In this document: positions 2,015 to 14,186 of the stretch, one piece after another | Layout of the letters: each line of letters begins with the position of its first letter | How positions within the stretch are numbered: position 1 is the stretch's first letter | The notes under the pieces: model-generated | Seen by the model: only the letters and a program-made list of their open reading frames with translations | The model's database searches: none | Told to the model about the DNA's origin: nothing | Assembly: GCA_016875255.1 (NCBI GenBank) | Contig: VGRU01000073.1 | Coordinates: 1 to 14,354 of the forward strand | DNA: 14,354 bases | Direction of reading: 5' to 3' | From: Deltaproteobacteria bacterium | Lineage (GTDB): Bacteria > Desulfobacterota > BSN033 > UBA1163 | Made by a program: the position numbers and the translations under genes

Positions 2015-2626
2015 ATGAAGGTTTTAATTGTTTACTATTCCATGTATGGGCATGTGCATCGTCTCGCAGAGGCTATGGCTGAAGGAGCCAGGGAAGTAAC
2101 AGGAGCGGAAGTTGAACTGCGTCGTGTGCCGGAGACGCTGTCGGAGGAGGTGCTAAAGAAGATGGGGGCGTTCGAAGCTCAGAAGGCCTTTGCTCATATC
2201 CCGGTCTGCAATGTGGATGAACTCGCTTCTGCCGGCGCCATACTTTTCGGAACGCCGACACGGTTCGGGAATATGTGCGGACAGATGCGGCAGTTCCTTG
2301 ACGCAACAGGACAGCTCTGGGCAAAGGGCGCGCTGGTCGGAAAAGTCGGAAGCGTGTTTACGAGTTCTGCCACACAACATGGAGGGCAGGAATCCACCCT
2401 CCTCAGTTTCCACATCACGCTTCTTCATCAGGGGATGATCGTTGTCGGCTTGCCTTATAGCTTTCAGGGCCAGATGCGCATTGATGAAATCACAGGCGGG
2501 TCTCCCTATGGAGCATCAACGATTGCAGGCGGTCAGGGAGAGCGAATGCCGAGCGAAAATGAGTTGGCTGCGGCAAGGTTTCAGGGAAAACATGTCGCAA
2601 CGATAGCCGTTAAATTAGCGAAGTAG
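2015..2626 (+). CDS. wrbA: NAD(P)H:quinone oxidoreductase, type IV (WrbA)
   Basis: 203 residues, the usual WrbA length of about 200. Flavodoxin-like fold: beta-strand M-K-V-L-I-V-Y-Y then the FMN-phosphate loop S-M-Y-G-H-V at 9-14; G-T-P-T-R-F-G-N-M at 79-87; the [10 protein letters not shown] signature at 117-126; and the C-terminal [13 protein letters not shown] segment at 161-173. WrbA is a cytosolic tetrameric FMN enzyme that reduces quinones by two electrons, limiting redox cycling. The start is fixed by AAGGAGG at 2000-2006. It stands alone on its strand: a MITE-like element lies just upstream and a double hairpin downstream, and the next gene is convergent. Any private promoter must lie inside or beyond the element. 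No missing motif was seen. Confidence 0.95.
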
Positions 2627-2690
2627 GAAAGGATTTAACCCCTCAGTTACAGGGATCACGAAATTCCTGATTAAATTTAGTTACAACCCG

Positions 2691-2747
2691 ATAGGCGGGA
2701 CATTCCTGTCCCGCCTATGTTGGAGGCGGGGTTAGAAAACCCCGCCT
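2691..2747. repeat. Tandem double hairpin between convergent wrbA and SOD
   Basis: Hairpin 1 has a perfect 12-bp stem, ATAGGCGGGACA (2691-2702) with TGTCCCGCCTAT (2707-2718), and loop TTCC. Hairpin 2 has a perfect 10-bp stem, AGGCGGGGTT (2724-2733) with AACCCCGCCT (2738-2747), and loop AGAA. The outer ends also mirror each other, starting GATAGGCGGG and ending CCCGCCTATC. No T-run follows on either strand, so it is a REP-type palindrome that may serve as a transcript end or stabiliser rather than a classical terminator. Confidence 0.75.
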
Positions 2748-2807
2748 ATCGACTCCGACGATCAATGAAATGGAATTCCCCCAATAACCGAGGCATTATG
2801 AAAGGGT

Positions 2808-3518
2808 TTATTTTAACCTTGACTCTGCGGCTTTCCAGTGGACGTTTTTGAAGAAGGCTTCAATGTAATCGGCTCGCTTCAATCCGTAATCGATCATAAA
2901 GGCATGTTCAAAGACATCCAGTATCAGAATGGGTGTGCAGCCCGCAGGGTGGCCGACGTCGTGTTCATTGATCCAGAAGTTGATAAGCTTTCCAGTGAGT
3001 GAATCCTGGTATAGGATGGCCCAGCCGATCCCCCGCATCATCCCTGTGGCCTTAAAATCTTTTTCCCAGGTTTCGTAACTTCCAAAGTCATCGGAGATTT
3101 TTTTGAACAGCTTCCCGGTCCTGTCCGGTCCTCCCTTGCCCCCCAGATTTTCGAAGTAATATTCATGGAGCCTCATGCCGTTGAATTCCCATCCCAATCT
3201 CCTCTTCAATTCAGCGTATTCCGGGGAACTCATCTTTCCATCCTTGAGCATTTGACCGAGCGTGTCCATCAATTTATTGGTGTTTGTGACGTAACCCTGG
3301 TAGAGGGTGAAGTGGTTTTTCAGAAGTGCTTCACTAAACCCCTCCATTCCTAAAAGTGGGCTGTAATCTTTGGCCGTATAGGTCATCTTTTCCTCCTTTC
3401 TGGCCTGCGCGAGAGAAAGGCTGGGTTGCCCTGACAAAAAGGCAATGCCTCCAAGACTTGAGTAAGTTAAAAATTGGCGTCGGCTCAAAACCCATGCGTT
3501 TAGAGATCCCTTTCTCAT
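2808..3518 (-). CDS. sodB: Fe/Mn superoxide dismutase with Tat-type signal peptide
   Basis: 236 residues. Residues 12-30 (L-S-R-R-Q-F-L then a hydrophobic stretch ending at G30) form a twin-arginine leader, so export of the folded metalloenzyme is expected. The catalytic part starts near residue 45. Metal ligands expected in Fe/Mn SODs are present: His69 (K-N-H-F), His118 (L-H-E-Y-Y-F), and Asp201 and His205 (D-V-F-E-H-A-F, with Phe where most have Trp). The enzyme dismutates superoxide to oxygen and peroxide. The first ATG has GGAGAGG upstream. A second ATG at codon 45 has its own strong site and would give a 192-residue cytosolic enzyme, the standard length of unexported SODs. The gene is convergent with wrbA. 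Fe versus Mn preference cannot be decided from sequence. Confidence 0.93.
   Translation of the reverse strand: MRKGSLNAWVLSRRQFLTYSSLGGIAFLSGQPSLSLAQARKEEKMTYTAKDYSPLLGMEGFSEALLKNHFTLYQGYVTNTNKLMDTLGQMLKDGKMSSPEYAELKRRLGWEFNGMRLHEYYFENLGGKGGPDRTGKLFKKISDDFGSYETWEKDFKATGMMRGIGWAILYQDSLTGKLINFWINEHDVGHPAGCTPILILDVFEHAFMIDYGLKRADYIEAFFKNVHWKAAESRLK
3384..3397 (-). promoter_or_regulatory. Internal ribosome-binding site and alternative start within the SOD gene
   Basis: On the minus strand AGGAGG (3392-3397, extended as AAAGGAGG) stands five bases before the in-frame ATG at 3386-3384. It lies exactly at the junction between the Tat leader and the catalytic domain. This is a stronger site than the one at the annotated start. 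Use as a second start is inferred. Confidence 0.5.
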
Positions 3519-3541
3519 CGTCCTCTCCGAATGATTCGGCC

Positions 3542-3703
3542 TTAACCTAAGGCCCAGATCAATCCCACAATAGCGCCCAGCGGGACGCTGACATAGGGGT
3601 TGCAGGTGAGGGCTCAGGAGCTTCCAATGGACCGCGTGAGGTAACTCAGGAGAAAACCGGCCAGCCCACCGATAATCAAGCCTAAAAAAATTCTAAGAAT
3701 CAT
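3542..3703 (-). CDS. Candidate small membrane selenoprotein, DUF6132-like (in-frame UGA read as Sec)
   Basis: Reading from the ATG at 3703 through one in-frame TGA (3616-3614) to TAA gives 53 residues. Residues 2-22 form a hydrophobic helix with G-L-I-I-G-G-L-A-G. Residues 25-36 read S-I-G-S-S-U-A-L-T-C-N-P, and a second hydrophobic, Gly-containing helix follows. This two-helix pattern with a central C-x-[IL]-T-x-N-P-Y resembles DUF6132-type proteins, in which the position of U30 is Cys (from memory, not searched). GAGGAGG lies five bases before the ATG. Coding quality is kept on both sides of the UGA, and a hairpin suited to a bacterial SECIS follows. It lies between SOD and an MFS transporter on the same strand. 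Function unknown; the conserved Cys suggests redox or thiol chemistry at the membrane. The alternative is a nonsense mutation in a Cys-containing gene. Confidence 0.6.
3578..3590 (-). promoter_or_regulatory. SECIS-like hairpin downstream of the in-frame UGA
   Basis: In the mRNA, CAGC pairs with GCUG around the loop GUCCC; alternatively CAGCG pairs with CGCUG around UCC. The loop G is the 28th base after the UGA. Published bacterial SECIS models want a short stem about 16-37 bases after the UGA and a G within the first two loop positions, which this satisfies. The stem is short, so this is support and not proof. Confidence 0.4.
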
Positions 3704-3761
3704 AACTTCCTCCTCTTTAAAAATAGCATTCCATTGCCCTTAAATCAAGGAAAGTTAAAAG

Positions 3762-3833
3762 ATGGGGAGATGGGGAGATCGGATGATGGGGTGAAAAATT
3801 TTTTCTCCCCGCCTCCCCATCTCCTCATCTCCC
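3762..3833. terminator. GA-rich imperfect inverted repeat after the MFS gene
   Basis: Repeated GATGGGGA units on the left mirror CTCCCCATCTCC units on the right, around the centre AAAAATTTTTTC. It starts six bases after the MFS stop on the minus strand and is followed there by TCTTTTAACTTT. It can fold into a long hairpin followed by a modest T-run, consistent with a terminator isolating the MFS transcript from the small gene downstream. It may instead be a dispersed repeat. Confidence 0.5.
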
Positions 3834-3838
3834 TATTT

Positions 3839-5077
3839 TTATTTTTTAGAGAAGGTATAGAAAATCACGCTGGCGGTCATACTGAGGAAACAGATGAGAA
3901 AGGAGAGATGATAAGCCTCTGCCGGGTAGGATGCTCCCGTCCGTGGGAAAGATTCGATCACCTTTCCAAGAAGGGGCATGAAAACCCCTGCTCCAGCCAT
4001 GGTGAAGAAATTGACATAGGTCATCACTGTCCCTGAGATCGCACGGGGAAAGAGATCTTTGGCATGAGCATAGATCAACATCCCAAAGCCATGGAAGAAA
4101 CCGATAAAAAAGAAGATGAGGCCGAATAGGAAAGGATGCTCTATTCTCCATATACCGGTTAGAGGGATGAGGCTGATGCAATAAAGGCTCAATCCTATCA
4201 AAGCAACGCCCTTACGGGATTGAAAGTGGCGATCGGAGAGACGGCCTCCAATGGGGCTTCCCAAAATGACACCCATGGCAAGCAGGATCAGAAGATTTCC
4301 CGCCTGAACAGGAGAAAATCCTTTGATATAGATGAGATAAGGCCCTAACCATAAACCCTGAAGGCTGACAAAGACTCCATACCTGAAAAAGGCCACTGCT
4401 CCGAACTGCCAGAAGGCAAGCGATCCAGTGATGAGTCGAATCGACTGTAAAATTCCCATCTCAGGTTTATCCTGAGAGGGGGAAGATACCCTCCCCTCCT
4501 CAATCTTTTCCCCTTTTAAAATCCAGTAAACCAGGAAACTGAGGAGGATGGTAATCATCCCGGTCATTAAAAAGGTCATCCTCCATCCTATCGTGGAGGT
4601 GAGAAAGGCAAGAGGAGAGGCCGCAAAGATATTCCCTATGGTTCCCACAGCGGAGATCAAACCCACAAGGGTGGCAAATTTTTCCGGTGGGTATCGGAGG
4701 GTAAAGGTTTTAAAAGCGCCCATCAGCATCGGAGCCATTCCAGCCCCGATCATTATTCTTCCGATGAGGACGGAATGAAAAGAGTCCCCGAAGGCGAATA
4801 AAAAGGCACCCATGGCTCCAATGAGACAGGAGACGGACATGATCATTCGTGGACCGATTCGGTCGAGCATCGGGCCCATGGGGATCTGAAGCAGGGTGAA
4901 AACATAGAAGAAGGCCCCTCCGAGAACACCGAGCATTTCTGCATTCAGTCCCAGATCCCGAATGAGATTGGGAGCGATCACCGCATTGGAGACGCGGTAG
5001 AACTGGGAGAGAACAAAAAGACCAGAGAGGATGGAGAAGATGAGTATGAGTCTTGAAGGTTGAGGTGTTCTAACCAT
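3839..5077 (-). CDS. Major facilitator superfamily transporter
   Basis: 412 residues, about twelve hydrophobic segments with a central loop near residues 188-210, as expected for a 12-helix MFS carrier in the inner membrane. The loop 2-3 signature is visible at 68-78 (G-x-x-L-D-R-x-G-P-R-M), and its second-half counterpart at 278-289 (G-R-L-S-D-R-H-F-Q-S-R-K). The N-terminal F-Y-R-V-S-N-A-V-I-A-P-N-L region is of a type common in deltaproteobacterial MFS proteins with unassigned substrates. It would exchange a small solute by proton symport or antiport; the sequence gives no substrate. The first ATG lacks a clear Shine-Dalgarno sequence (GATAGAACCCCA precedes it), so the start is less certain than the frame. 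A GA-rich hairpin follows the stop. Confidence 0.88.
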   Translation of the reverse strand: MVRTPQPSRLILIFSILSGLFVLSQFYRVSNAVIAPNLIRDLGLNAEMLGVLGGAFFYVFTLLQIPMGPMLDRIGPRMIMSVSCLIGAMGAFLFAFGDSFHSVLIGRIMIGAGMAPMLMGAFKTFTLRYPPEKFATLVGLISAVGTIGNIFAASPLAFLTSTIGWRMTFLMTGMITILLSFLVYWILKGEKIEEGRVSSPSQDKPEMGILQSIRLITGSLAFWQFGAVAFFRYGVFVSLQGLWLGPYLIYIKGFSPVQAGNLLILLAMGVILGSPIGGRLSDRHFQSRKGVALIGLSLYCISLIPLTGIWRIEHPFLFGLIFFFIGFFHGFGMLIYAHAKDLFPRAISGTVMTYVNFFTMAGAGVFMPLLGKVIESFPRTGASYPAEAYHLSFLICFLSMTASVIFYTFSKK

Positions 5078-5384
5078 TGGGGTTCTATCTTGAGAAGTTT
5101 GATAAAGGAAATACTCAAAAAATTCTAAAAGGATTTGAGGACTCCGTCAAGTAAGATTTGGGTGTGTTAATGTAAGATTTTTGGCATAAAAAGAGAAGGA
5201 GTGTTATCCTCTTGGGAAGATTTTCGGCACAATACAATCCCAATGAAACAGGAGTCCCAAATCGAAAAGCTTTTCATCTTGTAATGACTATGATATCGTT
5301 GGACACTGATGTAAAATAACTCTTACCAATCATATTGTTTTCATTCCCTCCTTTTACCGGGCAGGGGAACTTTAGGGAGGACCT
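5078..5384. other. Divergent intergenic region, 307 bp
   Basis: AT-rich spacer between the minus-strand MFS gene and the plus-strand DUF362 gene; promoters for both should lie here. TAAGATTT occurs twice (near 5150 and 5173). No convincing sigma-70 or sigma-54 promoter, riboswitch or small gene was recognised. The only clear signal is the ribosome-binding site AGGGAGG just before 5385. Confidence 0.5.
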
Positions 5385-6712
5385 ATGAGCAAAGCAACGG
5401 TTTGGTTTATGGATGCTCGGTCAAGGCGTTTTCTGGAATCCACGGTCATTAAGGGGCGACAAATCCTTGAATATTCCGGATGGCTCGACCATCTCAAACC
5501 GGGAGATATCGTAGCCGTCAAAACTCACATGGGGGAGGCCTACAATGTCGGCTACTTAAGACCAGTCATTGTTCGAACATTTGTGGATGCCCTCAAAGAG
5601 CGGGTTGCAAACCATTTGTTACGGACACGACCACCATGCCCTATCACCCATGGATCAGCAGGGCGTTGGCCGTGGATCATCTCGAAACGGCTAACCGCAA
5701 CGGTTTTAATCAGGCATCCATGGGCTGTCCGATCATCATCGCAGACGGCTGGCTGGGAACAGACGATGTGATCGTTGATCTCAAAGGTCGAGGAAACTAT
5801 TTAAACAAACAGTTTGTCGCCCGAGCCATTGCGGATGCGGATGCCCTCTTTTCTCTCGCCCATTTCAAGGGTCACCCTGCCGGAGGTTATGGGGCAGCGA
5901 TCAAAAACATTGGTGTCGGTTGTGCAAGCAAACGGGGCAAGATGAACCTTCACGGCGCTCTGGCCGGTGATAAACCCGTCATTAATGCCGAGCTTTGCCC
6001 TGGACGAAAGTGTGAATGGTGGGAAACCTGTGAGGAATGTTGCCCGGAAGGTTCGATCAAGGTGACGGAGAAAGGGTTAGAGGTTGACCTCGAATCATGT
6101 GTCTATTGCTTTGCCTGCGCTAACTTATGTGTGAATATGGCCGGGATCAAGGCCATTCAGCGGTTCGATCACCTGCCCGCGCTGGGGAGGCGTATTGCCG
6201 ATTCAGCGCTTGCTACCATGATGACCAAGGAATCCGACAAAGTGTTCTTCATCAACTATGCTCTGGATATCACTCCTGCCTGTGACTGTTACGGATGGAC
6301 GGATACGCCTTTTGTGAACAGCATAGGAGTTTTGGCCTCTTACGATCCGGTCGCTGTGGACAAGGCATGTATCGATCTGATGAACCAAGCTCCCGGACTG
6401 ATCAATTCCGAAGCCGAAGAATTTAATGCCCTTGCCCCAGGGTCGAAAAAGTTAAATCTCATCAAGGGAAAAGATATTGAGGTTCAGGTCTATGGCGGGG
6501 TAGAGAATGGTTTGGGCGTAGCCGACTACGTGATTAAGGAAGTTCCTCTTGACCGAAGTCAAGAGGCCATCGCACGTCTCTATCCGGAGAAGGTAAGGGC
6601 GAAAAAACTCAAGCCGATGTATGAAAAGAATCATCCCCTGTCTAATCTGGACACCGTTTCCTTCGGCCGGCTTACTGAAGGAGTGGCCAATCCAAAGCAT
6701 CCCAAAAAGTGA
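5385..6712 (+). CDS. DUF362 / COG2768 Fe-S cluster protein, interrupted by a one-base frameshift
   Basis: The frame opened at the ATG at 5385 (AGGGAGG upstream) loses family similarity at codon 73. Similarity resumes at once in the -1 frame. Adding one G to the GGG at 5602-5604 restores E-R-G-C-K-P-F-V-T-D and gives a 442-residue protein. In corrected numbering, DUF362 core motifs include H-M-G-E at 48-51 and F-K-G-H-P-A-G-G-Y-G-A-A-I-K-N near 161-174. Two cysteine groups follow: residues 205, 210, 216, 219 and 220, and C-x2-C-x2-C-x3-C at 239-249, a classic [4Fe-4S] pattern. DUF362 proteins are ferredoxin-like and of unknown reaction. The deletion is in a short G run, so it is either a sequencing error or a recent inactivation. 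The rest of the frame is undamaged, favouring error or a very young mutation. Confidence 0.85.
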
Positions 6713-6736
6713 CGGAAATATGAAGGCCGGCCAATC

Positions 6737-6898
6737 ATGGGCTTTGCTTCGGAAGGAGTCCGGCTGGGATCGGCAATAACCATCCTGATCGCCGTCAGCC
6801 TCGGGTTCACCGAGGCGCTTTTAGCCAGTGCGGGTTGTTATCTCATCGTATTTTCAATATTTCTAAAAAAGGGGTTAAAAGATGATCGTAGAATTTAA
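6737..6898 (+). CDS. Small membrane ORF, possibly the C-terminal remnant of a larger transporter-like gene
   Basis: 53 residues from the ATG at 6737, in the same frame as the DUF362 gene that ends 24 bases earlier. It reads M-G-F-A-S-E-G-V-R-L-G-S-A, then two hydrophobic stretches and a basic tail (K-K-G-L-K-D-D-R-R-I). This looks like the last helices of an integral membrane protein and not a self-standing family I recognise. GAAGGCCGG is a weak upstream site. The end overlaps the first 17 bases of the carbonic anhydrase gene, so translation could be coupled. A genuine small protein and a decayed gene end are both possible. Confidence 0.35.
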   Translation: MGFASEGVRLGSAITILIAVSLGFTEALLASAGCYLIVFSIFLKKGLKDDRRI

Positions 6899-7409
6899 AG
6901 GAAAGCGTCCGAAGATTGACCCGACGGCATTTATTGCCGAGAATGCGATGGTCATTGGGGATGTGGAGATTGGGTCGGGAAGCAATATCTGGTTTTACAG
7001 CATCCTCCGGGGAGATATGAACTATATCCGGATCGGATCAAATGTGAACATCCAGGATTCATGTGTCCTTCACATCGACAAGAAGTTCTATCCCCTCATC
7101 CTTGAGGATGAAGTGGTCTTGGGTCACCGGGTGGTGGCGCATGGATGCAAGATCCGAAGGGGATCGCTCATCGGAATAGGAGCGATCCTTTTAAACGGAT
7201 CTGAGATCGGTGAGGAATCGATCGTTGGCGCAGGGTCCGTGGTCACTCCCAATACGATCATTCCGCCTAAAACCCTTGCTTTAGGCGCTCCTGCCAAACC
7301 CATTAGGCCTCTGAACGAGAAAGACCTCGAGATGATCAAGGACACCCTCCAGGACTACCAGGATTTAAAAAAGATTTATCAATCCCTTTCGAACCGTAAG
7401 GATTCTTAG
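6882..7409 (+). CDS. Gamma-class carbonic anhydrase-like protein (left-handed beta-helix)
   Basis: 175 residues, the usual size for compact gamma-carbonic anhydrase/YrdA/PaaY-type proteins. Hexapeptide repeats run from about residue 20 to 125 (for example A-M-V-I-G-D-V, S-L-I-G-I-G-A, S-I-V-G-A-G-S), followed by the C-terminal helix typical of the fold. Three zinc-ligand histidines align with the archaeal enzyme Cam: His64 (V-L-H-I-D), His82 and His87 (G-H-R-V-V-A-H-G-C). The R-G-D motif at 43-45 and Gln58 also match. A trimer with metal at the subunit interfaces and carbon dioxide hydration are expected, but many members lack measured activity. An AAGGGG sequence lies about ten bases before the start. 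It follows the DUF362 gene on the same strand; a MITE-like element follows the stop. Confidence 0.92.
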   Translation: MIVEFKGKRPKIDPTAFIAENAMVIGDVEIGSGSNIWFYSILRGDMNYIRIGSNVNIQDSCVLHIDKKFYPLILEDEVVLGHRVVAHGCKIRRGSLIGIGAILLNGSEIGEESIVGAGSVVTPNTIIPPKTLALGAPAKPIRPLNEKDLEMIKDTLQDYQDLKKIYQSLSNRKDS

Positions 7410-7427
7410 TTTGTTTCAAGGTTTATG

Positions 7428-7536
7428 GGTTCCTCTAAAAATGTCATTCCGGCGAAAGCCGGAATCCAGAAAGTTTTGAAATCACTGGATTCCCGCCTGC
7501 TGGGGAATGACGAACTGAGGATTATTAGAGGTTCCC
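7428..7536. mobile_element. MITE-like element, copy 2 (inverted relative to copy 1)
   Basis: The terminal repeats are GGGTTCCTCTAA and TTAGAGGTTCCC (10 of 12 bases pair). The internal hairpin ATTCCGGC-GAAA-GCCGGAAT lies at 7446-7465. The pentamer TTATG flanks both ends (7423-7427 and 7537-7541), consistent with a 5-bp target duplication. Its reverse complement matches the element at 1852-1982 at both ends and in the hairpin; the middle differs in length and sequence. Confidence 0.75.
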
Positions 7537-7541
7537 TTATG

Positions 7542-7784
7542 TCTTGAGTTGTCTATGTACACTCCCCAATCTCAAAAATTGATCTGCCAGTCCCCCCTTC
7601 CAATAGAATGTGAGTCATCCCATTTTTTAAATAGTTGCCTTGTTTTAAATATAAACATATAATTGCAGGAAATTACCATGGATCCCCCTGATGGTGGAGG
7701 GCAGTAGGAATTGCTGCCGCTGGTGCGTAAGAATGTAAAAAATTCAGACAAGAAGAATTGTTTGTTATGAGCAAAGGATAAATA
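7542..7784. other. Intergenic stretch without recognisable gene
   Basis: No intact ORF with a ribosome-binding site was recognised. Short frames such as one reading R-A-V-G-I-A-A-A-G-A could be the tail of an antitoxin-like partner of the next fragment, but stops in all frames and the lack of a clear family match prevent a call. A 96-codon frame on the minus strand spans the area but has no ribosome-binding site or family signature. Confidence 0.3.
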
Positions 7785-7958
7785 TTGAAGAAAGACCGTA
7801 AAAAACCAAGCCTTTACATCATTGCCGGTCCTAACGGTGCAGGGAAAACAACCTTTGCCCAAAAATTCCTTCCAAAATATAGAGTGACGGCAAACTTGAT
7901 TGAAGTTTCAAGTTGGAACCTTGGGGACATTCGGCCGGAGTGTGCCTGGGGGTATTAA
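7785..7958 (+). pseudogene. Truncated P-loop (zeta-toxin-like) kinase, N-terminal fragment
   Basis: A TTG start with AAAGGA eight or so bases upstream opens a 57-codon frame. Residues 9-31 (S-L-Y-I-I-A-G-P-N-G-A-G-K-T-T-F-A and following) contain a perfect Walker A, G-P-N-G-A-G-K-T, preceded by the strand typical of zeta-toxin/AAA_33-like nucleotide kinases of about 190-200 residues. Similarity stops around residue 44, exactly where the direct repeat beginning at 7917 enters, and the frame then ends at a TAA inside the repeat. The gene was therefore cut by the event that placed the repeat here. Intact relatives often sit beside a small antitoxin-like gene; none is recognisable here. Confidence 0.7.
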
Positions 7959-8133
7959 GAATCAGATGCTATCTATAAAAAAATTGCCATATTTCCAATG
8001 CACCTACCTATAATAGGCAGGGGTTGCCGGAGGGGCAACTGAAAAGAGGGACAATTGACCCGAGAGGAACTTTTTGAACTCATCACTGAAGTTCAGCGAC
8101 ACCAGAGTGAACTGGACGATGTGGAAGTAAAAT
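7917..8133 (+). repeat. Long direct repeat, copy 1 (about 217 bp)
   Basis: It starts AACCTTGGGGACATTCGG and ends at GTGGAAGTAAAAT. It matches 9285-9500 with scattered substitutions and one-base indels. It carries a promoter-like pair, a ribosome-binding site and the first codons of an AlbA_2-type protein. Together with copy 2 it brackets the RhuM-Fic gene. Confidence 0.9.
7984..8014 (+). promoter_or_regulatory. Putative sigma-70 promoter in repeat copy 1
   Basis: TTGCCA (7984-7989) and a perfect TATAAT (8009-8014) are separated by 19 bp, slightly longer than the optimum. The copy-2 counterpart keeps the TATAAT and the same 19-bp spacing. It could drive the short AlbA_2 fragment and the RhuM-Fic gene behind it. 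Confidence 0.35.
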
Positions 8134-8192
8134 TAGCCCAAGGCGGAACCCCCAAGCGTCCTTTTAGACCGGATTCGCAGAGAACGAGCTGA
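8055..8192 (+). pseudogene. AlbA_2 (Schlafen-type) protein, N-terminal fragment, copy 1
   Basis: 45 codons from a TTG with GAGGG four bases upstream. L-T-R-E-E-L-F-E-L-I-T-E-V-Q-R-H-Q and D-V-E-V-K-L-A-Q-G-G-T-P-K-R match the opening of AlbA_2-domain ATP-binding proteins, in which G-G-T-P-K-R is followed by the domain core. Here the match ends after G-T-P-K-R, the frame closes within 11 codons, and the RhuM-Fic gene begins 36 bases later. The first 26 codons belong to the direct repeat; the remaining ones do not. Confidence 0.6.
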
Positions 8193-8228
8193 AACCCCTT
8201 TCACCAAAGCAATAAAGCGGAGCAGTAA

Positions 8229-9239
8229 ATGAAATCAGCAGCGCAAAATAGAGGCCAAATAATTATTTATCGGACACCGGAAGGGAAAACAGAATTAGAA
8301 GTCAAACTGGAACGAGAGACCCTCTGGTTAAACCAATACCAATTAACGGATCTGTTTGAGACAGATCGGACTTCAATTCTCAAACATATCAAAAATATCT
8401 ATGAAACGAGCGAACTGTCTGAAAACGCAACTTGTGCAAAATTTGCACAAGTTCGAAAAGAAGGCAAAAGATCGGTAACAAGGCAAATTCTATACTACAA
8501 TCTTGATATGATTCTTTCTGTCGGTTATCGCATCAACTCGAAGCGCGGCACTCAGTTTCGTATTTGGTCAAACAACGTTTTAAAAGAATATCTGATGAAC
8601 GGATATGTTCTAAATGAAAAACGGTTAACTGAGCGGGAAACCCAACTGAAAACTCTAAAAACAAGCATTCAACTGTTGGAACGCAGCGTCATCAAGCAGG
8701 CTAACAAGTTAGATCAAGCAAGAACGCTGGTCAATATCATCGCTGATTTTTCCAAAGGGCTGGGAATCCTGGATGACTACGATAATGAAAGATTAGATAC
8801 CAGGGGTTTTACGGAAAAAGAGGCAGCTATTATTTCCTATAAAGAATGTAAACAAATTATCGGACAGATAAAAGATGTATTTAACTCTTCCTTATTCGGA
8901 CAGGAAAAGGATAGTAGTTTCCATGGCTCTATCAGGCAGATATATCAAACTTTTGCGGGCAGAGACCTTTATCCTTCCATCGAAGAAAAAGCAGCCGTTC
9001 TTCTCTATCTGATTGTTAAGAACCATTCTTTTGTGGACGGCAACAAACGGATTGCAGCCACAGTATTTCTCTATTTTCTTAATAAAAATGGCATGTTGTA
9101 CCGGAAGGACAAAACGACGTTGATCGATGGAAACACCCTGGCATCCATTACACTGATGATCGCTGAGAGTAATCCTGGCGAGATGGAAACAGTCAAAAGG
9201 ATCGTTATGAGCGTATTAAACAGGAGCAAAATATCTTGA
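8229..9239 (+). CDS. RhuM-family virulence protein with C-terminal Fic/Doc domain
   Basis: 336 residues. Residues about 8-130 match RhuM-type proteins (I-I-I-Y-R-T-P-E-G-K, then L-W-L-N-Q-Y-Q-L-T-D-L-F-E-T-D-R and Y-Y-N-L-D-M-I-L-S-V-G-Y-R). A helical linker follows at about 130-170. A Fic domain then spans to about 330, with the complete active motif H-S-F-V-D-G-N-K-R at 266-274, matching H-x-F-x-[DE]-G-N-[GK]-R. Fic enzymes usually transfer AMP or another nucleotide moiety to protein hydroxyls; RhuM was named from a Salmonella pathogenicity island and its molecular role is unclear. GGAG lies six bases before the ATG. It is the only gene in this accessory block that looks intact. It is flanked by direct repeats, and its AT-richer sequence differs from the surrounding chromosome, suggesting transfer. 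No cognate antitoxin was recognised next to it. Confidence 0.9.
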   Translation: MKSAAQNRGQIIIYRTPEGKTELEVKLERETLWLNQYQLTDLFETDRTSILKHIKNIYETSELSENATCAKFAQVRKEGKRSVTRQILYYNLDMILSVGYRINSKRGTQFRIWSNNVLKEYLMNGYVLNEKRLTERETQLKTLKTSIQLLERSVIKQANKLDQARTLVNIIADFSKGLGILDDYDNERLDTRGFTEKEAAIISYKECKQIIGQIKDVFNSSLFGQEKDSSFHGSIRQIYQTFAGRDLYPSIEEKAAVLLYLIVKNHSFVDGNKRIAATVFLYFLNKNGMLYRKDKTTLIDGNTLASITLMIAESNPGEMETVKRIVMSVLNRSKIS

Positions 9240-9284
9240 GTCCTGAAACCGATAATACCTCAGGCATCATCAGTAAGGTTTGTA

Positions 9285-9500
9285 AACCTTGGGGACATTC
9301 GGCTGGAGTGTGTCTGGGGTATTAAGAATCGGATGCCATCCATAAAAAAGTTGGCCTGTTTTCAATGCACCTACCTATAATAGGCAGGGGTTGCTGGAGG
9401 GGAAACTGAAAAGGAGGGCAATTGACCCGAGAGGAACTTTTTGAACTCATCACTGAAGTTCAGCGACACCAGATTGAACTGGACGATGTGGAAGTAAAAT
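9285..9500 (+). repeat. Long direct repeat, copy 2 (about 216 bp)
   Basis: Counterpart of 7917-8133 in the same orientation, offset 1368 bp. The last 80 or so bases are almost identical; the first half is more diverged. Its left edge abuts the small palindrome GGTTTGTAAACC. It leads into a short AlbA_2 fragment just as copy 1 does. Confidence 0.9.
9351..9381 (+). promoter_or_regulatory. Putative sigma-70 promoter in repeat copy 2
   Basis: TTGGCC (9351-9356) and TATAAT (9376-9381) with a 19-bp spacer, equivalent to the copy-1 arrangement. Called by consensus only. Confidence 0.35.
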
Positions 9501-9520
9501 CAGCAAGGCAGAACAACTAA
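9422..9520 (+). pseudogene. AlbA_2 (Schlafen-type) protein, N-terminal fragment, copy 2
   Basis: 32 codons from a TTG preceded by AAGGAGG. The first 26 codons repeat copy 1 with a single change (S to I at residue 18), then S-A-R and a rapid stop. A-C-T-A-A-G-C-G-A-C-T-T just downstream could encode the T-K-R-L continuation after frame loss, suggesting decay by small indels. Confidence 0.55.
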
Positions 9521-9604
9521 GCGACTTTTTGAACAGAGAGAGATATGAAGCAAACAGATCTTGATATCCTTCTTCATGAAGGGGAGGGGTCCATGTTGGA
9601 GTAA

Positions 9605-9727
9605 ACCCCGTTAGAAAGCTTTCAACTTTCTAACGGGAAAGCTCACACGGGGCATTAAACCCCGTGTTCGCTGAAAAGGAAACAGTCACCATCCCCGCAG
9701 CAGAGCTGCGGGGCTTTCTAACGGGGT
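9605..9727. mobile_element. 123-bp three-hairpin element with perfect 15-bp terminal inverted repeats
   Basis: The ends are ACCCCGTTAGAAAGC (9605-9619) and GCTTTCTAACGGGGT (9713-9727), perfectly complementary. Inside are three perfect hairpins: a 12-bp stem (9607-9618 with 9626-9637, loop 7), an 8-bp stem (9645-9652 with 9660-9667, loop 7) and a 9-bp stem (9693-9701 with 9705-9713, loop AGA). The left terminus can pair either with its neighbour at 9626 or with the far end. It has no coding capacity. No convincing target duplication was seen, and flanking gene sequence is missing, so insertion was accompanied or followed by deletion. Confidence 0.75.
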
Positions 9728-10640
9728 AAAAATATTAACTGAAGTGGTGGGTAAAGTTATGGTGATCATTGTTCGGGAAAGCGAGAACAAGCCTGTCCAA
9801 TGCCGTGAGGGATTCTTTTGGCGACAAGGGGCAAGCACCCAGAAACTTTCACGCGATGAGATACGGGATTTTTTCCGCATTGAAGGGGCGATCCGGTTTG
9901 ACCTATCCGTTTGTCCAAAATTCCGTTAACCTGACGACTTCGACCGGGAAAAATTCGATGCCTGGATTAGCCAGAGCCGGATCACCTCCAGAGGGAGGAT
10001 TGAGGATGTCCTGGCGAATATTGAGGTTGCTGAGCGTGCTGGGAGACGTCTCATCTTCCGAAATGCGGGGGTTCTCTTTTTTGCAAAAAATGTAAACCAT
10101 TTCTTTCCCCAGGCGTATGTCACCTGTCTTCTGGCAAAAGGTACGGACAAGGTCAATATTCTGGATCGCAAGGATTTTACTGGAGGTTTGGTAAGTGATA
10201 TCGAGGAAAGCCTCCGTTTCATTGAGAGGAACACGAGGACTGGTTACCGCATTGAGAAGTTAAGGCGTGAGGATGTGCCTGAATATCCCATGCGTGCACT
10301 TCGTGAAGCAATTACAAATGCTGTTATGCACCGGGACTACTTTGAAGCGGGCGCAAATGTTTTCGTTGAAATATACGACGATCGAATTGAAATCAGCAAC
10401 CCCGGAGGCTTGCCGAGGGGGCTAAACAGAGAAGAACTTGGCACTCGCAGTGTGAGGCGGAATCCGCTTATAGCAGACCTTCTTCACCGAATCGCCCTCA
10501 TTGAAAAAGCAGGGACAGGAATCCGACGCATGATAGAGGACGCAAAAAAGCATAAATGCCCTGAACCCAAATTCACAGTTAATGGATTCTTCACTGCCAC
10601 TTTCTGGCCAAACATCGAAATAGCTCGTAAAATCACCCCG

Positions 10641-10706
10641 CAGGTCACAGGGCAAGTTACCGAACAAGTTGGTGGACAAGTCAGTGAGCAAGTTACCCCG
10701 CAAGTG
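10641..10706 (+). repeat. Five-and-a-half 12-bp coding repeats (x-Q-V linker)
   Basis: Units begin CAAGT or CAGGT every 12 bases and encode four-residue repeats of the form Q-V-x-x (Q-V-T-G, Q-V-T-E, Q-V-G-G, Q-V-S-E, Q-V-T-P). They lie between the ATPase part and the C-terminal winged-helix part of the disrupted gene. Similar T-x-Q-V runs are common in this family. Copy number can change by slippage without breaking frame. Confidence 0.8.
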
Positions 10707-10975
10707 ATAGCAGTTCTTGAAGCGGCCCGAACGGCCCGCACTCGAGAGGAATTGCAGGGGGCAGTTGGTCTAAGGGACCGTGAACACTTTCGCAAGACAT
10801 ACCTCGAGCCATTGCTTGTGGCTGGCTGGCTTAAGATGACGATACCGGATAAGCGGCGAAGCTCAAAACAGCGCTACAGGACGACCGATCTGGGACGTAA
10901 AGTGCTGGCCCGACGGAGCAAAGGATCATAGATTTCTGAGATTGAAAGAGCAAGAACTGAGCTATTTTAGCTGAC

Positions 10976-11180
10976 GAAACATCATTGAGGTTAACGCCTT
11001 GGAAATCTTCCATCTCAAACAAAGTGATGTCGGTTATCCTTCTAACTTACATGGGTATTTCGCGGACCGTGGCTTGGGAATCATTGAAGTTCTGGGCAAC
11101 CTCGAAGTCCTGCAAGAGAAGAAACTTGGATTCTTCTGTTCGATCAAATGTCCAGGGTAGTTTGTTCTAAAAATATACGA
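10976..11180 (+). pseudogene. DprA/SMF-like fragment
   Basis: A frame without a start runs from after a TGA at 10973 and reads E-I-F-H-L-K-Q-S-D-V-G-Y-P-S-N-L, then L-G-I-I-E-V-L-G-N-L-E-V-L-Q-E-K-K-L-G-F-F-C-S-I-K-C-P-G before a TAG (11158-11160). V-L-K-I-Y-D continues in frame after the stop. This resembles the N-terminal part of short DprA-like (Rossmann) proteins, where C-S-x-K-C-P-G is followed by the nucleotide-fold core. The core is gone: the fragment runs into the 3' end of the convergent rubredoxin gene. Identification is from memory of the motif and is moderate. Confidence 0.5.
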
Positions 11181-11182
11181 CC

Positions 11183-11341
11183 CTAAACCTTCTCGAACAT
11201 ATCTTTGGGAGCGCCGCAGACCGGGCAGACCCAACCGTCAGGAACTTTAGCAAAAGGGGTATTCGGAGAGACGCCCCCATCCTCGTCGCCCTTTGCCGGA
11301 TCGTAGATGTAACCGCAAACCGTGCATTTGTATTTTTCCAT
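11183..11341 (-). CDS. Rubredoxin
   Basis: 52 residues, standard rubredoxin length. The Fe(Cys)4 site is complete: C6-x2-C9 (C-T-V-C-G-Y) and C39-x2-C42 (C-P-V-C-G-A), with the conserved aromatic Y4, Y11, F30 and W37 and the [10 protein letters not shown] segment. Rubredoxins are small cytosolic one-electron carriers that feed rubrerythrins and other oxygen- or peroxide-reducing enzymes in anaerobes. The ATG at 11341 is preferred because GGAGG lies five bases upstream. A longer frame from 11392 would add 17 residues unlike any rubredoxin, and these encode the operator-like repeats. It follows a rubrerythrin-like gene on the same strand, consistent with paired function, though 141 bp with repeats separates them. 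Confidence 0.95.
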
Positions 11342-11370
11342 TTCATCCTCCAAATGATGCTGTAGGGTCG

Positions 11371-11436
11371 TTTCACTTGAGGAGCATTTCATTTGAGGAG
11401 CACTCCGTTTGAGGGTGTTTTCGCATTAACCCTCAA
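11371..11436 (-). promoter_or_regulatory. Operator-like triple repeat and dyad upstream of rubredoxin
   Basis: The octamers ACTTGAGG, ATTTGAGG and GTTTGAGG start at 11375, 11391 and 11407, exactly 16 bp apart; the first two belong to a 16-bp tandem repeat (TTTCAYTTGAGGAGCA). The third overlaps a perfect 8-bp dyad, TTGAGGGT (11409-11416) and ACCCTCAA (11429-11436). The array lies 30-95 bp before the rubredoxin start, the expected place for a promoter operator. The binding protein is unknown. Confidence 0.45.
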
Positions 11437-11482
11437 GGCCGGAGGCCGTCCTAAAGTGAAGCGCTCTCAACAGCCCAGCAGG

Positions 11483-11929
11483 CTATTTCAAGACTTCATC
11501 GTCGTAGATTTTTTCGAGTTTCAGTTTGTGCTTGGCCTCCTCGTTGGCGAGCAAGGTGAAGAGTTTCTTCAAATCTCCGTCCGTGTTCGATTCCTTCATG
11601 TCAGTATAGAGTTTAAGGGATTTCTCCTCCCTTTTCATGGCAATCCGGAGTGTATCGGCATAAGAGAGATCGGGTTTCATTGCCATCTCGACCATATAGT
11701 CGCTGATATGAAGATCAGGAACCTTCTCAATCCTTTTCTGTGAAACCTTCTCCATATTCAGGTTTTGAAGTAATTTGCGGTGACCCTCCTCTTCTTTCGC
11801 AAGCGATAAAAAGAGCTCCTTCCCCCCGGAGTATTTTGTATTCTGACTGGCTCCGGTGTAAAAATTGAAAGCCTCAATCTCCTTGTCAATGGCAAACTGA
11901 ATGATCTCCTTAAATTTCTTCTCGTCCAT
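11483..11929 (-). CDS. Rubrerythrin-like ferritin-superfamily diiron protein (no rubredoxin domain)
   Basis: 148 residues forming a four-helix ferritin-like domain. The two half-sites each show the E-x2-[AS]-x3-Y and E-x2-H pattern: Glu17 with Tyr24, Glu47-x2-His50, Glu101 with Tyr108, and Glu131-x2-His134, a complete diiron site. It corresponds to COG1633-type proteins, which resemble rubrerythrin without its rubredoxin tail. In rubrerythrin the diiron centre reduces hydrogen peroxide with electrons from rubredoxin; here the separate rubredoxin gene immediately downstream could supply that function, which is an inference. The start has AAAGGAG six bases upstream. A short hairpin, AGCC-TGCTG-GGCT, follows the stop but has no T-run. 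Confidence 0.9.
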   Translation of the reverse strand: MDEKKFKEIIQFAIDKEIEAFNFYTGASQNTKYSGGKELFLSLAKEEEGHRKLLQNLNMEKVSQKRIEKVPDLHISDYMVEMAMKPDLSYADTLRIAMKREEKSLKLYTDMKESNTDGDLKKLFTLLANEEAKHKLKLEKIYDDEVLK

Positions 11930-11997
11930 AGTTTCTCCTTTGCGATTTTAAATTGGCCTCATTTTAAAGAAAGTAATCCTTAGGGTCAAGTTTTATT

Positions 11998-12089
11998 TAG
12001 TCGCATAGTCAATTAGTCTGTTCGTCGAATCGTCCATGCATCGGGCCGGAAAGACTATGAGACTATCAGACCATGAAACTATGTGACTA
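11998..12089. repeat. Imperfect inverted repeat at the 3' end of the ATPase gene
   Basis: The 23-base arms at 11998-12020 and 12067-12089 pair at 17 positions, with GACTAT-type words repeated inside (12052-12080). The inner arm includes the ATPase stop codon (12087-12089). It may act as a transcript end. It resembles the short GACTATGA repeat tracts dispersed in some deltaproteobacterial genomes. Confidence 0.5.
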
Positions 12090-14186
12090 CTCTCTTCTCA
12101 AGAGCCTCATCGAATTCAGGATGACCAGCAACGAGCTGGCCTGGTGCATCACGGCTCCGAGGATCATGGTCACCCATCCCTGGGCGGAAAGAAAAACCAG
12201 CACGGTGTTAAAAACAAGCGCAAAGGCGATATTTTCCTTAATCACCCGAAGGGCCCTGCGAGAGAGGCGGATAGCGGTCGGGATCTTTTCGAGTTCATCC
12301 GTCATCAATGCGATGTCTGCTGTCTCGATGGCAATATCCGTTCCTGCCGCACCCATGGCGATGCCGACATCAGCAGCGGCCAGCGCAGGCGCATCATTGA
12401 CCCCGTCACCAACCATGGCCACTGTCTGGCCCTGTTTTTTCCACTCCTTGACCCTCAATACTTTCTCTTCGGGAAGAAGATTTGCCTCGTACCGGATCCC
12501 TAATTCTTTTCCAATCCGGTCGGCAACCGATTCGCTATCGCCCGTGAGCATCCAGATTTCAGACAGCCCCTCTTTCCTGATCCTATCGATGGTGGCCTTT
12601 GCCTTCTCCCGCAAGGTATCCGCAATGGAAATCAGGCCGAGAAGGCGATGATCCAGAGACAGGAAAAGGGAGGTGGCTCCCTCCGACTCTTTCTGTTTCA
12701 AAACCTCCATGGCCGATTCCGAAATGGCAACCTTCTCCTCCCTGAGGAATTGGACGCGGCCTAACAGAATGGCCTTCCCATTCGACTGTGTCTTTACCCC
12801 CTTTCCTCTCAGGTTCTCAAAGGATTCGGGGTGAGGAATGATGAGGCCCATCTCTTCCGCTCTTTCCATGATCGCTTTTGCGAGGGGATGCTCGGAGCGT
12901 TTCTCGGCAATGCCTGCCCAGTAGAGGACCTCTTTTTCATTCAATCCATCGAATCCAATGATCCCTACCACTTTAGGCCTCCCATAGGTGAGGGTGCCTG
13001 TCTTATCCATCAAAAGAGTCTTCAATCTCCCCATCTGTTCGAGGTAAGCTCCTCCTTTGATGAGGATTCCCTGTCTGGCTGCATTTCCAATGGCGGCCAC
13101 CACAGCAGTGGGCGTTCCCAGCACAAGGGCGCAGGGACAAGCCACAATGAGAATGGTGATCGCACGGATAGCATCTCCTGTAATGAGAAATGTTGTGAGG
13201 GCGATTAAAAGAATGGCCGGGATGAAGTATCGGGCAAAACGGTCCATCACCCTCTGGGTGGGCGATTTTTCCGCCTGGGCCTCAAGGATCAAACGCTTGA
13301 TCTGGGCCAGCTTCGTATCTTCAGCCACCTGAGTGGTTTCAATCTCGCAGGAGCCGGACTCATTAATGGTTCCGCAGTAGACCCGGTCCCCGACTCCCTT
13401 CTCAATAGGGATTGATTCGCCGGTTAGCATCGACTGGTTGATCGAGCCGCATCCGGAGATGATCTTCCCATCCACAGGGATCCTCTCTCCGGGCTTGACG
13501 ATCACAACCTCTTTGGCCTTCACCTCCTCGATGGGAATTCGAACTTCTTCCTGTTCTCTTCTTACCCACGCTGTCTTTGGGGCAAGCTGGATCAGGGAGG
13601 AGATCGCTTTTCTTGTCTTTCCAACGGTGAGATGCTCTAAGAACTCGCCGAGAAGCATGATGAAGATGACGGTCGCGGCCTCCTGATAGGCGCCGACCGC
13701 TGTTGCTGCGATGGCGGCAATGGAGACGAGGGTATCCACATTTAAATCCGGGATCAAGAGGGCCTTAATGGCGCTTTTCAGAATGGGGTAGCCTCCAAGG
13801 ATCAAAGAGGCGATGGCAAAGGCCGTCGAAAGGTGGGCTGGTCCCAGGTGGAGCCACCCGGAGATATAGGATAGAACCAGCGTCATTCCGGAGGAGGCCA
13901 TAAAGAGCAAGGGCCTCATCTCACTCCAGAAGGCCCGAGTCTTCTGGGCGAGGGTCTCCCTGACGACATAACCGGGCTGGGTGATGGCCTTCTTGATCTT
14001 CTCCTCTTCGACCCGGTGCGGGTCATAATAGACCGTGGCCGAGGAGAGGACATAACTCACCTCTGCGGAGAGAACTCCGGGAAGGTGTTCCACCGAGCGC
14101 TCGATATTGAGAGCGCAATCCGCACAATGGATGCTTTCAATGTCGATGGTGACCTTGGACTTGCCTTCGAACTTTTTCTCTTCCAT
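12087..14186 (-). CDS. Heavy-metal-translocating P1B-type ATPase
   Basis: 699 residues, complete. An N-terminal HMA domain (about 10-76) has the metal-binding pair Cys21-x2-Cys24. Membrane segments follow from about 93. The actuator motif T-G-E-S is at 255-258, the metal-site C-P-C at 350-352, the phosphorylated Asp394 in D-K-T-G-T, S-E-H-P at 431-434 and the hinge G-D-G-V-N-D at 593-598. It pumps soft metal ions out of the cytoplasm using ATP. Metal choice is uncertain: C-P-C suits copper, silver, zinc or cadmium, while the last two helices carry F-N (659-660) and M-H-Q-A-S-S (680-685), close to the Y-N and M-x2-S-S of copper pumps but with changes. No clear ribosome-binding site precedes the ATG (CAAAACGG). 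Inverted repeats lie immediately beyond both ends. No copper chaperone or metal regulator is visible in the window. Confidence 0.94.
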   Translation of the reverse strand: MEEKKFEGKSKVTIDIESIHCADCALNIERSVEHLPGVLSAEVSYVLSSATVYYDPHRVEEEKIKKAITQPGYVVRETLAQKTRAFWSEMRPLLFMASSGMTLVLSYISGWLHLGPAHLSTAFAIASLILGGYPILKSAIKALLIPDLNVDTLVSIAAIAATAVGAYQEAATVIFIMLLGEFLEHLTVGKTRKAISSLIQLAPKTAWVRREQEEVRIPIEEVKAKEVVIVKPGERIPVDGKIISGCGSINQSMLTGESIPIEKGVGDRVYCGTINESGSCEIETTQVAEDTKLAQIKRLILEAQAEKSPTQRVMDRFARYFIPAILLIALTTFLITGDAIRAITILIVACPCALVLGTPTAVVAAIGNAARQGILIKGGAYLEQMGRLKTLLMDKTGTLTYGRPKVVGIIGFDGLNEKEVLYWAGIAEKRSEHPLAKAIMERAEEMGLIIPHPESFENLRGKGVKTQSNGKAILLGRVQFLREEKVAISESAMEVLKQKESEGATSLFLSLDHRLLGLISIADTLREKAKATIDRIRKEGLSEIWMLTGDSESVADRIGKELGIRYEANLLPEEKVLRVKEWKKQGQTVAMVGDGVNDAPALAAADVGIAMGAAGTDIAIETADIALMTDELEKIPTAIRLSRRALRVIKENIAFALVFNTVLVFLSAQGWVTMILGAVMHQASSLLVILNSMRLLRRE

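Follow-up and report, generated by a model that had tools for sequence, protein, structure and literature searches.

The window analysed here is a 14,354-nt contig (GenBank VGRU01000073.1, assembly GCA_016875255.1) from a genome labelled Deltaproteobacteria bacterium. Its minus strand carries a 53-codon reading frame interrupted by a single UGA at codon 30. Comparative evidence argues that this is a real but hidden selenoprotein gene, the representative of a new family; its codon 30 very probably encodes selenocysteine (Sec), inserted presumably by SelB. The frame is very probably a single gene for a two-helix membrane selenoprotein in a sister clade of the DUF6132 family; a thioredoxin-fed Sec–Cys relay is its proposed function. 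The gene was overlooked because the UGA sits in its middle.

Translation of positions 3542-3703 (minus strand) gives MILRIFLGLIIGGLAGFLLSYLTRSIGSS-UGA-ALTCNPYVSVPLGAIVGLIWALG-TAA, the frame that a first-pass annotation had picked out from the window's sequence. The strong ribosome-binding site and the two hydrophobic, glycine-rich helices that it described are also there (Table 1). The AlphaFold model places the helices at residues 2-26 and 36-52, joined by a short helix at residues 31-34 (mean predicted local distance difference test score, pLDDT, 84.8; predicted TM-score, pTM, 0.58). Mean lysine plus arginine counts are 1.41 (N-terminal), 0.74 (loop), and 0.38 (C-terminal). A search of the PDB for similar folds returned nothing at E 0.001 (best E 4.4).

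Table 1. Features in and around the predicted selenoprotein gene (window positions; distances marked + are nucleotides after the UGA; f1 is the window's family).
Feature	Position	Strand	Details
Predicted selenoprotein open reading frame	3542..3703	(-)	53 codons plus TAA; putative Sec codon at position 30
Putative Sec codon UGA	3614..3616	(-)	Codon 30; 16/16 in the f1 set
Ribosome-binding site GAGGAGG	3709..3715	(-)	Ends 5 nt before ATG; read from sequence
U-A-L-T-C motif, residues 30-34	3602..3616	(-)	Putative Sec plus single partner Cys at +4 (residues)
Glycine-rich protein helix, residues 2-26	3626..3700	(-)	AlphaFold model
Glycine-rich protein helix, residues 36-52	3548..3598	(-)	AlphaFold model
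RNA helix 1	3560..3602	(-)	Arms 3593-3602 and 3560-3568; +12 to +54 nt; covarying
Inner RNA hairpin	3574..3587	(-)	Loop CGCU 3579-3582; retained in only part of the clade
Distal hairpin GGCCUUA-GGU-UAAGGCC	3538..3554	(-)	Loop 3545-3547; spans the stop codon; near-invariant in the clade
Fe/Mn superoxide dismutase	2808..3518	(-)	Pfam PF02777; 23 nt downstream of the gene, same strand
Major facilitator superfamily (MFS) transporter	3839..5077	(-)	Pfam PF07690; upstream of the gene, same strand

Relatives of the gene were sought by translated search in 40 genomes: the 17 of the window's family (f1) and 23 others. The full 53-codon frame occurs in 15 of the 17 f1 genomes and is always interrupted just once, by TGA at codon 30; among the 23 others the best match had E 0.09. 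The copy in G001, the genome nearest to the window (21% of sampled words shared), is 96% identical in protein sequence. Twelve named records that carry the gene are metagenome-assembled genomes labelled Deltaproteobacteria, Syntrophaceae, Thermodesulfobacteriota, or uncultured proteobacterium or bacterium. In the f1 sequence set (the window's gene plus 15 others), all 16 members have TGA at codon 30 and all 16 end in TAA. Codon differences among them are mostly synonymous on either side of the UGA: the mean ratio of nonsynonymous to synonymous changes (pN/pS) is 0.28 before it, 0.28 after it, and 0.99 past the TAA. Selection that is equal on both sides and ends at the TAA places the UGA inside one protein. 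A true stop, leaving a 29-residue peptide or a nonsense mutation, would explain why some database entries end at the UGA, but its probability is close to nil: downstream purifying selection matches that upstream, and the UGA is not only invariant in f1 but recurs in 13 families. The same invariance and pN/pS values rule out a pseudogene.

Evidence for the Sec machinery comes from relatives of the window's genome, where the selA, selB, and selC products that the first-pass annotation proposed to look for were found. SelB scores above cut-off in 16 of 17 f1 genomes and in 21 of 23 other carriers; among the candidates scored, tRNA-Sec exceeds 75 bits in 15 of 17 f1 genomes and the cut-off in six of eight others tried; and SelA is present in G001, the sole genome tested for it. 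SelB is near-universal in these relatives, and therefore no correlation between its presence and that of the gene is possible. All 15 f1 carriers also encode a formate dehydrogenase alpha subunit (fdhA) with one TGA, plus copies without TGA. In the 16 fdhA loci read, the Sec context is UHSS, and a loop of GGUCU, GGGCU, or similar lies 18-19 nt past the UGA. Together, the conserved UGA, selection on both sides, an aligned Cys in homologues (below), and the Sec machinery of the lineage argue strongly for the Sec assignment first made from the window's sequence.

Several observations weigh against a Sec-containing, thioredoxin-fed protein. G004 and G005, of the same genus, are without the gene. 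A SelB match above cut-off is absent in G007, G102, and G107 (drafts, 88-96% complete; G007 has a SelB-like fragment close to a contig end), and no strong tRNA-Sec was found among the candidates scored in G005, G010, G045, and G078. Thioredoxin genes do not adjoin the gene in the f1 loci read. The criteria for a bacterial selenocysteine insertion sequence (bSECIS) are loose, being fitted by 54% of codon-order shuffles. Finally, four database proteins (P0002, P0012, P0013, and P0016) have Trp at the Sec position. These entries could mean that ribosomes decode the UGA as tryptophan, or pass it by general readthrough, and do not insert Sec; gene callers that read TGA as Trp would also explain them. 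UGA terminates 3 of 13 other window frames checked as well as several relatives of the gene, and 28 full-length database homologues without Trp carry Cys at this position. With Sec machinery present in the lineage, decoding as tryptophan or by readthrough is very improbable.

The UGA form extends well beyond f1. Three profile searches of the phylum covered 395 genomes each, the same draw judging by their listings. The f1 profile matched in 28 genomes at E 0.01, a sister-clade profile in 32 at E 0.001, and the Pfam DUF6132 model in 11 at E 0.001. The Pfam model gave 13 matches, every one with exactly one TGA; above the Pfam cut-off there are 12 matches in 10 genomes, again with one UGA each. 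Joined, the searches place the UGA form in 38 of 395 genomes and 13 families. This count follows the removal of three matches: G095 (TGA away from the Sec position), G296 (a 22-residue partial match without TGA), and G283 (no stop; a 275-residue frame that we take to resemble UppP). One genome, G142, enters it on its table row alone. No full-length Cys form was seen in the three phylum searches.

Cys forms do occur in the protein database. There, the best 7994 candidates by shared words were scored with the sister-clade profile, yielding 40 matches from organisms that include Omnitrophica, Planctomycetota, and Verrucomicrobiaceae: 28 contain C-x4-C, its second Cys aligned with Sec; in 3, Trp occupies that position; and the other 9 are halves that break off at the UGA. 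The search of the protein database turned up no Cys form belonging to the window's own clade. The first-pass annotation supposed that neither half of the gene would be annotated, which proved wrong: the database holds nine 5' halves of 29-44 residues and, in the 35-residue Glov_2727 (Trichlorobacter lovleyi SZ), what appears to be the 3' half from a sister-clade member.

The relation to DUF6132 (PF19628) is close. The two clade profiles align over 52 of 53 columns (hhalign probability 98.4, E 6.8e-15), the sister-clade profile detects the G001 gene at E 2.2e-6, and DUF6132 is matched at E 0.01 by 20 of the 39 proteins in the wider set. The window protein itself scores 11.7 bits, below the gathering score of 23.2, and is therefore filed as a sister clade rather than as a DUF6132 member. 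The DUF6132 kinship supposed in the first-pass annotation held for the Cys aligned in database homologues and failed for Pfam membership. Length, two glycine-rich helices, and full-length homology are common to both groups, as is, in most members, the motif G-[ST]-x-[CU]-x-[LI]-T-x-[NS]-P, in which DUF6132 has Cys at the Sec position. At residue 30, then, homologues align as the first-pass annotation expected: UGA throughout f1, Cys in DUF6132 homologues. The groups differ in the partner Cys: DUF6132 proteins contain a C-x4-[CU] pair, whereas the window clade lacks the upstream Cys and has U-x3-C instead. And unlike DUF6132 entries, the window gene is concealed from annotation by its Sec codon.

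This difference reflects a wider pattern. Across 39 aligned members, exactly one Cys lies within eight residues of Sec in every case, none having both partners and none having neither: it is at +4 in 26, at -5 in 10, and at -6 in 3. (The alignment omits L064, with an upstream frame break; L070, whose start is unclear; and the later finds L096 and L098. Other genes are duplicated by L083 and by several of L087-L108.) We infer that the partner Cys is a bond partner that changed sides relative to Sec. In the proposed mechanism, Sec30 and Cys34, which sit where the two helices turn, would form a reversible selenenylsulfide. Electrons supplied by the thioredoxin system would pass through it to a target in the membrane or periplasm, probably in defence against oxidative stress. 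On this thioredoxin-coupled relay we are evenly divided.

Gene neighbourhoods say redox rather than one fixed operon. (Superoxide dismutase and MFS neighbours were called by sequence, with Pfam applied to the window copies only; L022-L033 are the same genes as twelve of L002-L016.) Superoxide dismutase lies downstream in the window and in L022-L025, that is, in 5 of 13 long-flank loci, and the MFS gene lies upstream in 9 of 13 f1 loci. In family f21, a thioredoxin gene lies 12-23 nt upstream in six of seven loci (Pfam confirmation on L058 only); in the seventh, L064, thioredoxin overlaps the gene through a frame break. In L067, a thioredoxin reductase gene (above the NCBIfam cut-off) begins 14 nt past the stop codon, and genes for a zinc-finger anti-sigma and a sigma factor lie upstream. 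The remaining loci have unrelated neighbours, such as galT.

Alternatively, Sec may be real and the selenol and thiol bind a metal, metalloid, or sulfur species, with no electron relay. The window does encode a heavy-metal P-type ATPase, a rubrerythrin-type protein, and rubredoxin; a CGGC-domain gene precedes the sister-clade copies L085 and L086 (Pfam checked for L086 only); and the compared portion of PMC13188914 includes predicted transport-related selenoproteins, several of them thought to handle metals. Against this stand the thioredoxin and thioredoxin reductase neighbours in two separate lineages. Furthermore, the partner Cys switches sides of Sec while its number stays at one, which is easier to reconcile with a bond partner than with ligands in a fixed geometry. 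Metal or sulfur binding is thus rather unlikely, and the relay is preferred to it.

Two side observations concern the neighbourhoods. Window positions 2015-14186 also encode a WrbA-type NAD(P)H:quinone oxidoreductase, rubredoxin, the rubrerythrin-type protein, and the heavy-metal P-type ATPase. Downstream of the gene in G006 (L027:5293-6525) lies an oxidoreductase gene near the SelD N-terminal-fusion type (TIGR03169, 282 vs 310 bits).

RNA structures after the UGA were compared in an alignment of 28 sequences of the window clade's type, L064 and L070 included. (Codon and phylogenetic constraint weakens all of the covariation and pairing tests that follow.) The first-pass annotation had offered a 4-bp hairpin, CAGC-GUCCC-GCUG, as the recoding signal. 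It is indeed present at +24 to +36, but it is not conserved in relatives and was dropped. By the bSECIS criteria, the window fits with loop CGCU at 31 nt and 6 of 16 f1 sequences do not; a general scan accepted 31 of 40 sequences, against 21.5 ± 3.1 (maximum 29) in 30 replicates of codon-order shuffles, a poor separation. An Rfam scan of the window and of 3500-3720 gave no lead.

The sister clade contains a more familiar element: in 9 of 13 genes, a GGUC loop at +19 caps a stem of at least 5 pairs (the stem is down to 4 pairs in L084 and L086 and contains a mismatch in L078 and L082). Its stem shows 7 doubly changed cells against 2.1 ± 1.2 shuffled (0/500). Among the 28 window-clade-type sequences, L070 has a GGU loop at +20, and the other 27 have no GGU-type loop near +19 or +20. 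Two other structures mark these sequences. The helix from +12 to +54 shows 26 doubly changed cells against 12.0 ± 3.7 shuffled (0/500), and is 87% paired against at most 51% when slid. The distal GGN hairpin, its loop 66 nt after the UGA, is present in 26 of the 28.

Codon choice is narrow where the distal hairpin lies. All 16 f1 genes encode Leu-52 by TTA, a codon that makes up 20% of their other Leu codons; the next set (six f21 genes plus L065) likewise uses TTA there in 7 of 7, against 6% elsewhere. Besides start, UGA, and stop, codons 51 and 52 alone are invariant in f1. Pairing survives in L068, where UCA and UGA replace UUA and UAA. Two mundane identities were rejected: an intrinsic terminator, since no U-run follows, and a genome-wide repeat, since in 17 genomes the hairpin is found only at the gene and at one decayed copy. 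(Locus L074, G008:C52, 102-173, duplicates the gene's 3' half in decayed form; it has Cys in place of Sec, still contains the intact distal hairpin motif, and was omitted from all alignments.)

A further reading is that the clade's SelB-binding SECIS has been relocated: a two-part element, in which the GGN hairpin overlaps the stop codon. The helix from +12 to +54 would fold away the intervening RNA, bringing the distal loop effectively to about 23 nt from the UGA. Canonical bacterial SECIS elements (those of fdhA and the sister clade) share the small apical loop that starts with G-G or G-U, but theirs lies at 18-19 nt whereas the window clade's lies at 66 nt. Su et al., in 2005, reportedly placed a SECIS in the 3' untranslated region in E. 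coli. The loop range given in the compared portion of PMC13188914 is 16-37 nt after the UGA. Consistent with relocation, the distal hairpin is absent in 11 of 13 sister-clade genes and in L070. In L067, whose protein is 10 codons longer, the hairpin remains at +65 with loop GGG; therefore, it tracks the UGA and not the stop. Other results count against relocation: the distal pairing shows two doubly changed cells and a score of 0.076, below the shuffled 0.105; automatic consensus folding of the 28 chose a shifted pairing (folding of the 16 f1 sequences recovered the hairpin); L069 has just 4 distal pairs in register; and, by a loose rule, 2 of 13 sister-clade genes have some distal hairpin. 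Relocation is therefore a tentative proposal, which we hold to be somewhat less probable than its opposite.

Six papers were compared in part: PMC13188914, PMC9312934, PMC12013277, PMC13102595, PMC8659212, and PMC5371997. Neither DUF6132 nor the window motif is in the selenoprotein tables of the compared portions of PMC13188914 (Table 1) and PMC9312934, and DUF6132 does not occur in the compared portion of PMC12013277. A literature search on DUF6132 returned unrelated work only. Against NCBIfam, the 16 f1 proteins and the 13 of the sister clade produced weak matches below cut-off, none to selenoprotein families. The nearest analogies are with catalogued U/C-pair selenoproteins (in the part of Table 1 of PMC13188914 compared: the LULAXC-motif TsoA, YeeE/YedE, and thioredoxin-like proteins), which have one Sec, often a nearby Cys, and, like the window protein, a probable redox role.

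Two further frames came to light beside fdhA. In 9 of 16 fdhA loci read, a NuoB gene is interrupted in frame by TGA at residue 37, where the CC motif has its first Cys, which we take to be a ligand of the N2 iron-sulfur cluster (L114:529-1047 (-), L116:364-882 (-), L115, L119, L121, L122, L123, L124, and L126). PF01058 was checked on L114 and L116, and TIGR01957 is above cut-off on L116. A stem with loop AGUUC lies at +24 in these loci, perfect in L121 and with one mismatch elsewhere. This NuoB is a possible second unlisted selenoprotein. Loci L112 and L113 contain, next to fdhA, a frame, presumably HdrA-like, with UGA in a C-x-x-U context. HdrA is a known selenoprotein family in the compared portion of PMC13188914 (Table 1).

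Together, these results point to an apparently uncatalogued selenoprotein family, tiny and membrane-embedded, in about one-tenth of the phylum genomes sampled (38/395), whose members are cut at the UGA in the database entries examined. Its Sec/Cys pairs and partner-Cys swap offer testable redox chemistry for DUF6132, a family of unknown function. Moreover, if the distal hairpin is the SECIS, this clade would be a natural exception to the rule that the loop lies within about 37 nt of the UGA, and rule-based searches would miss such genes.
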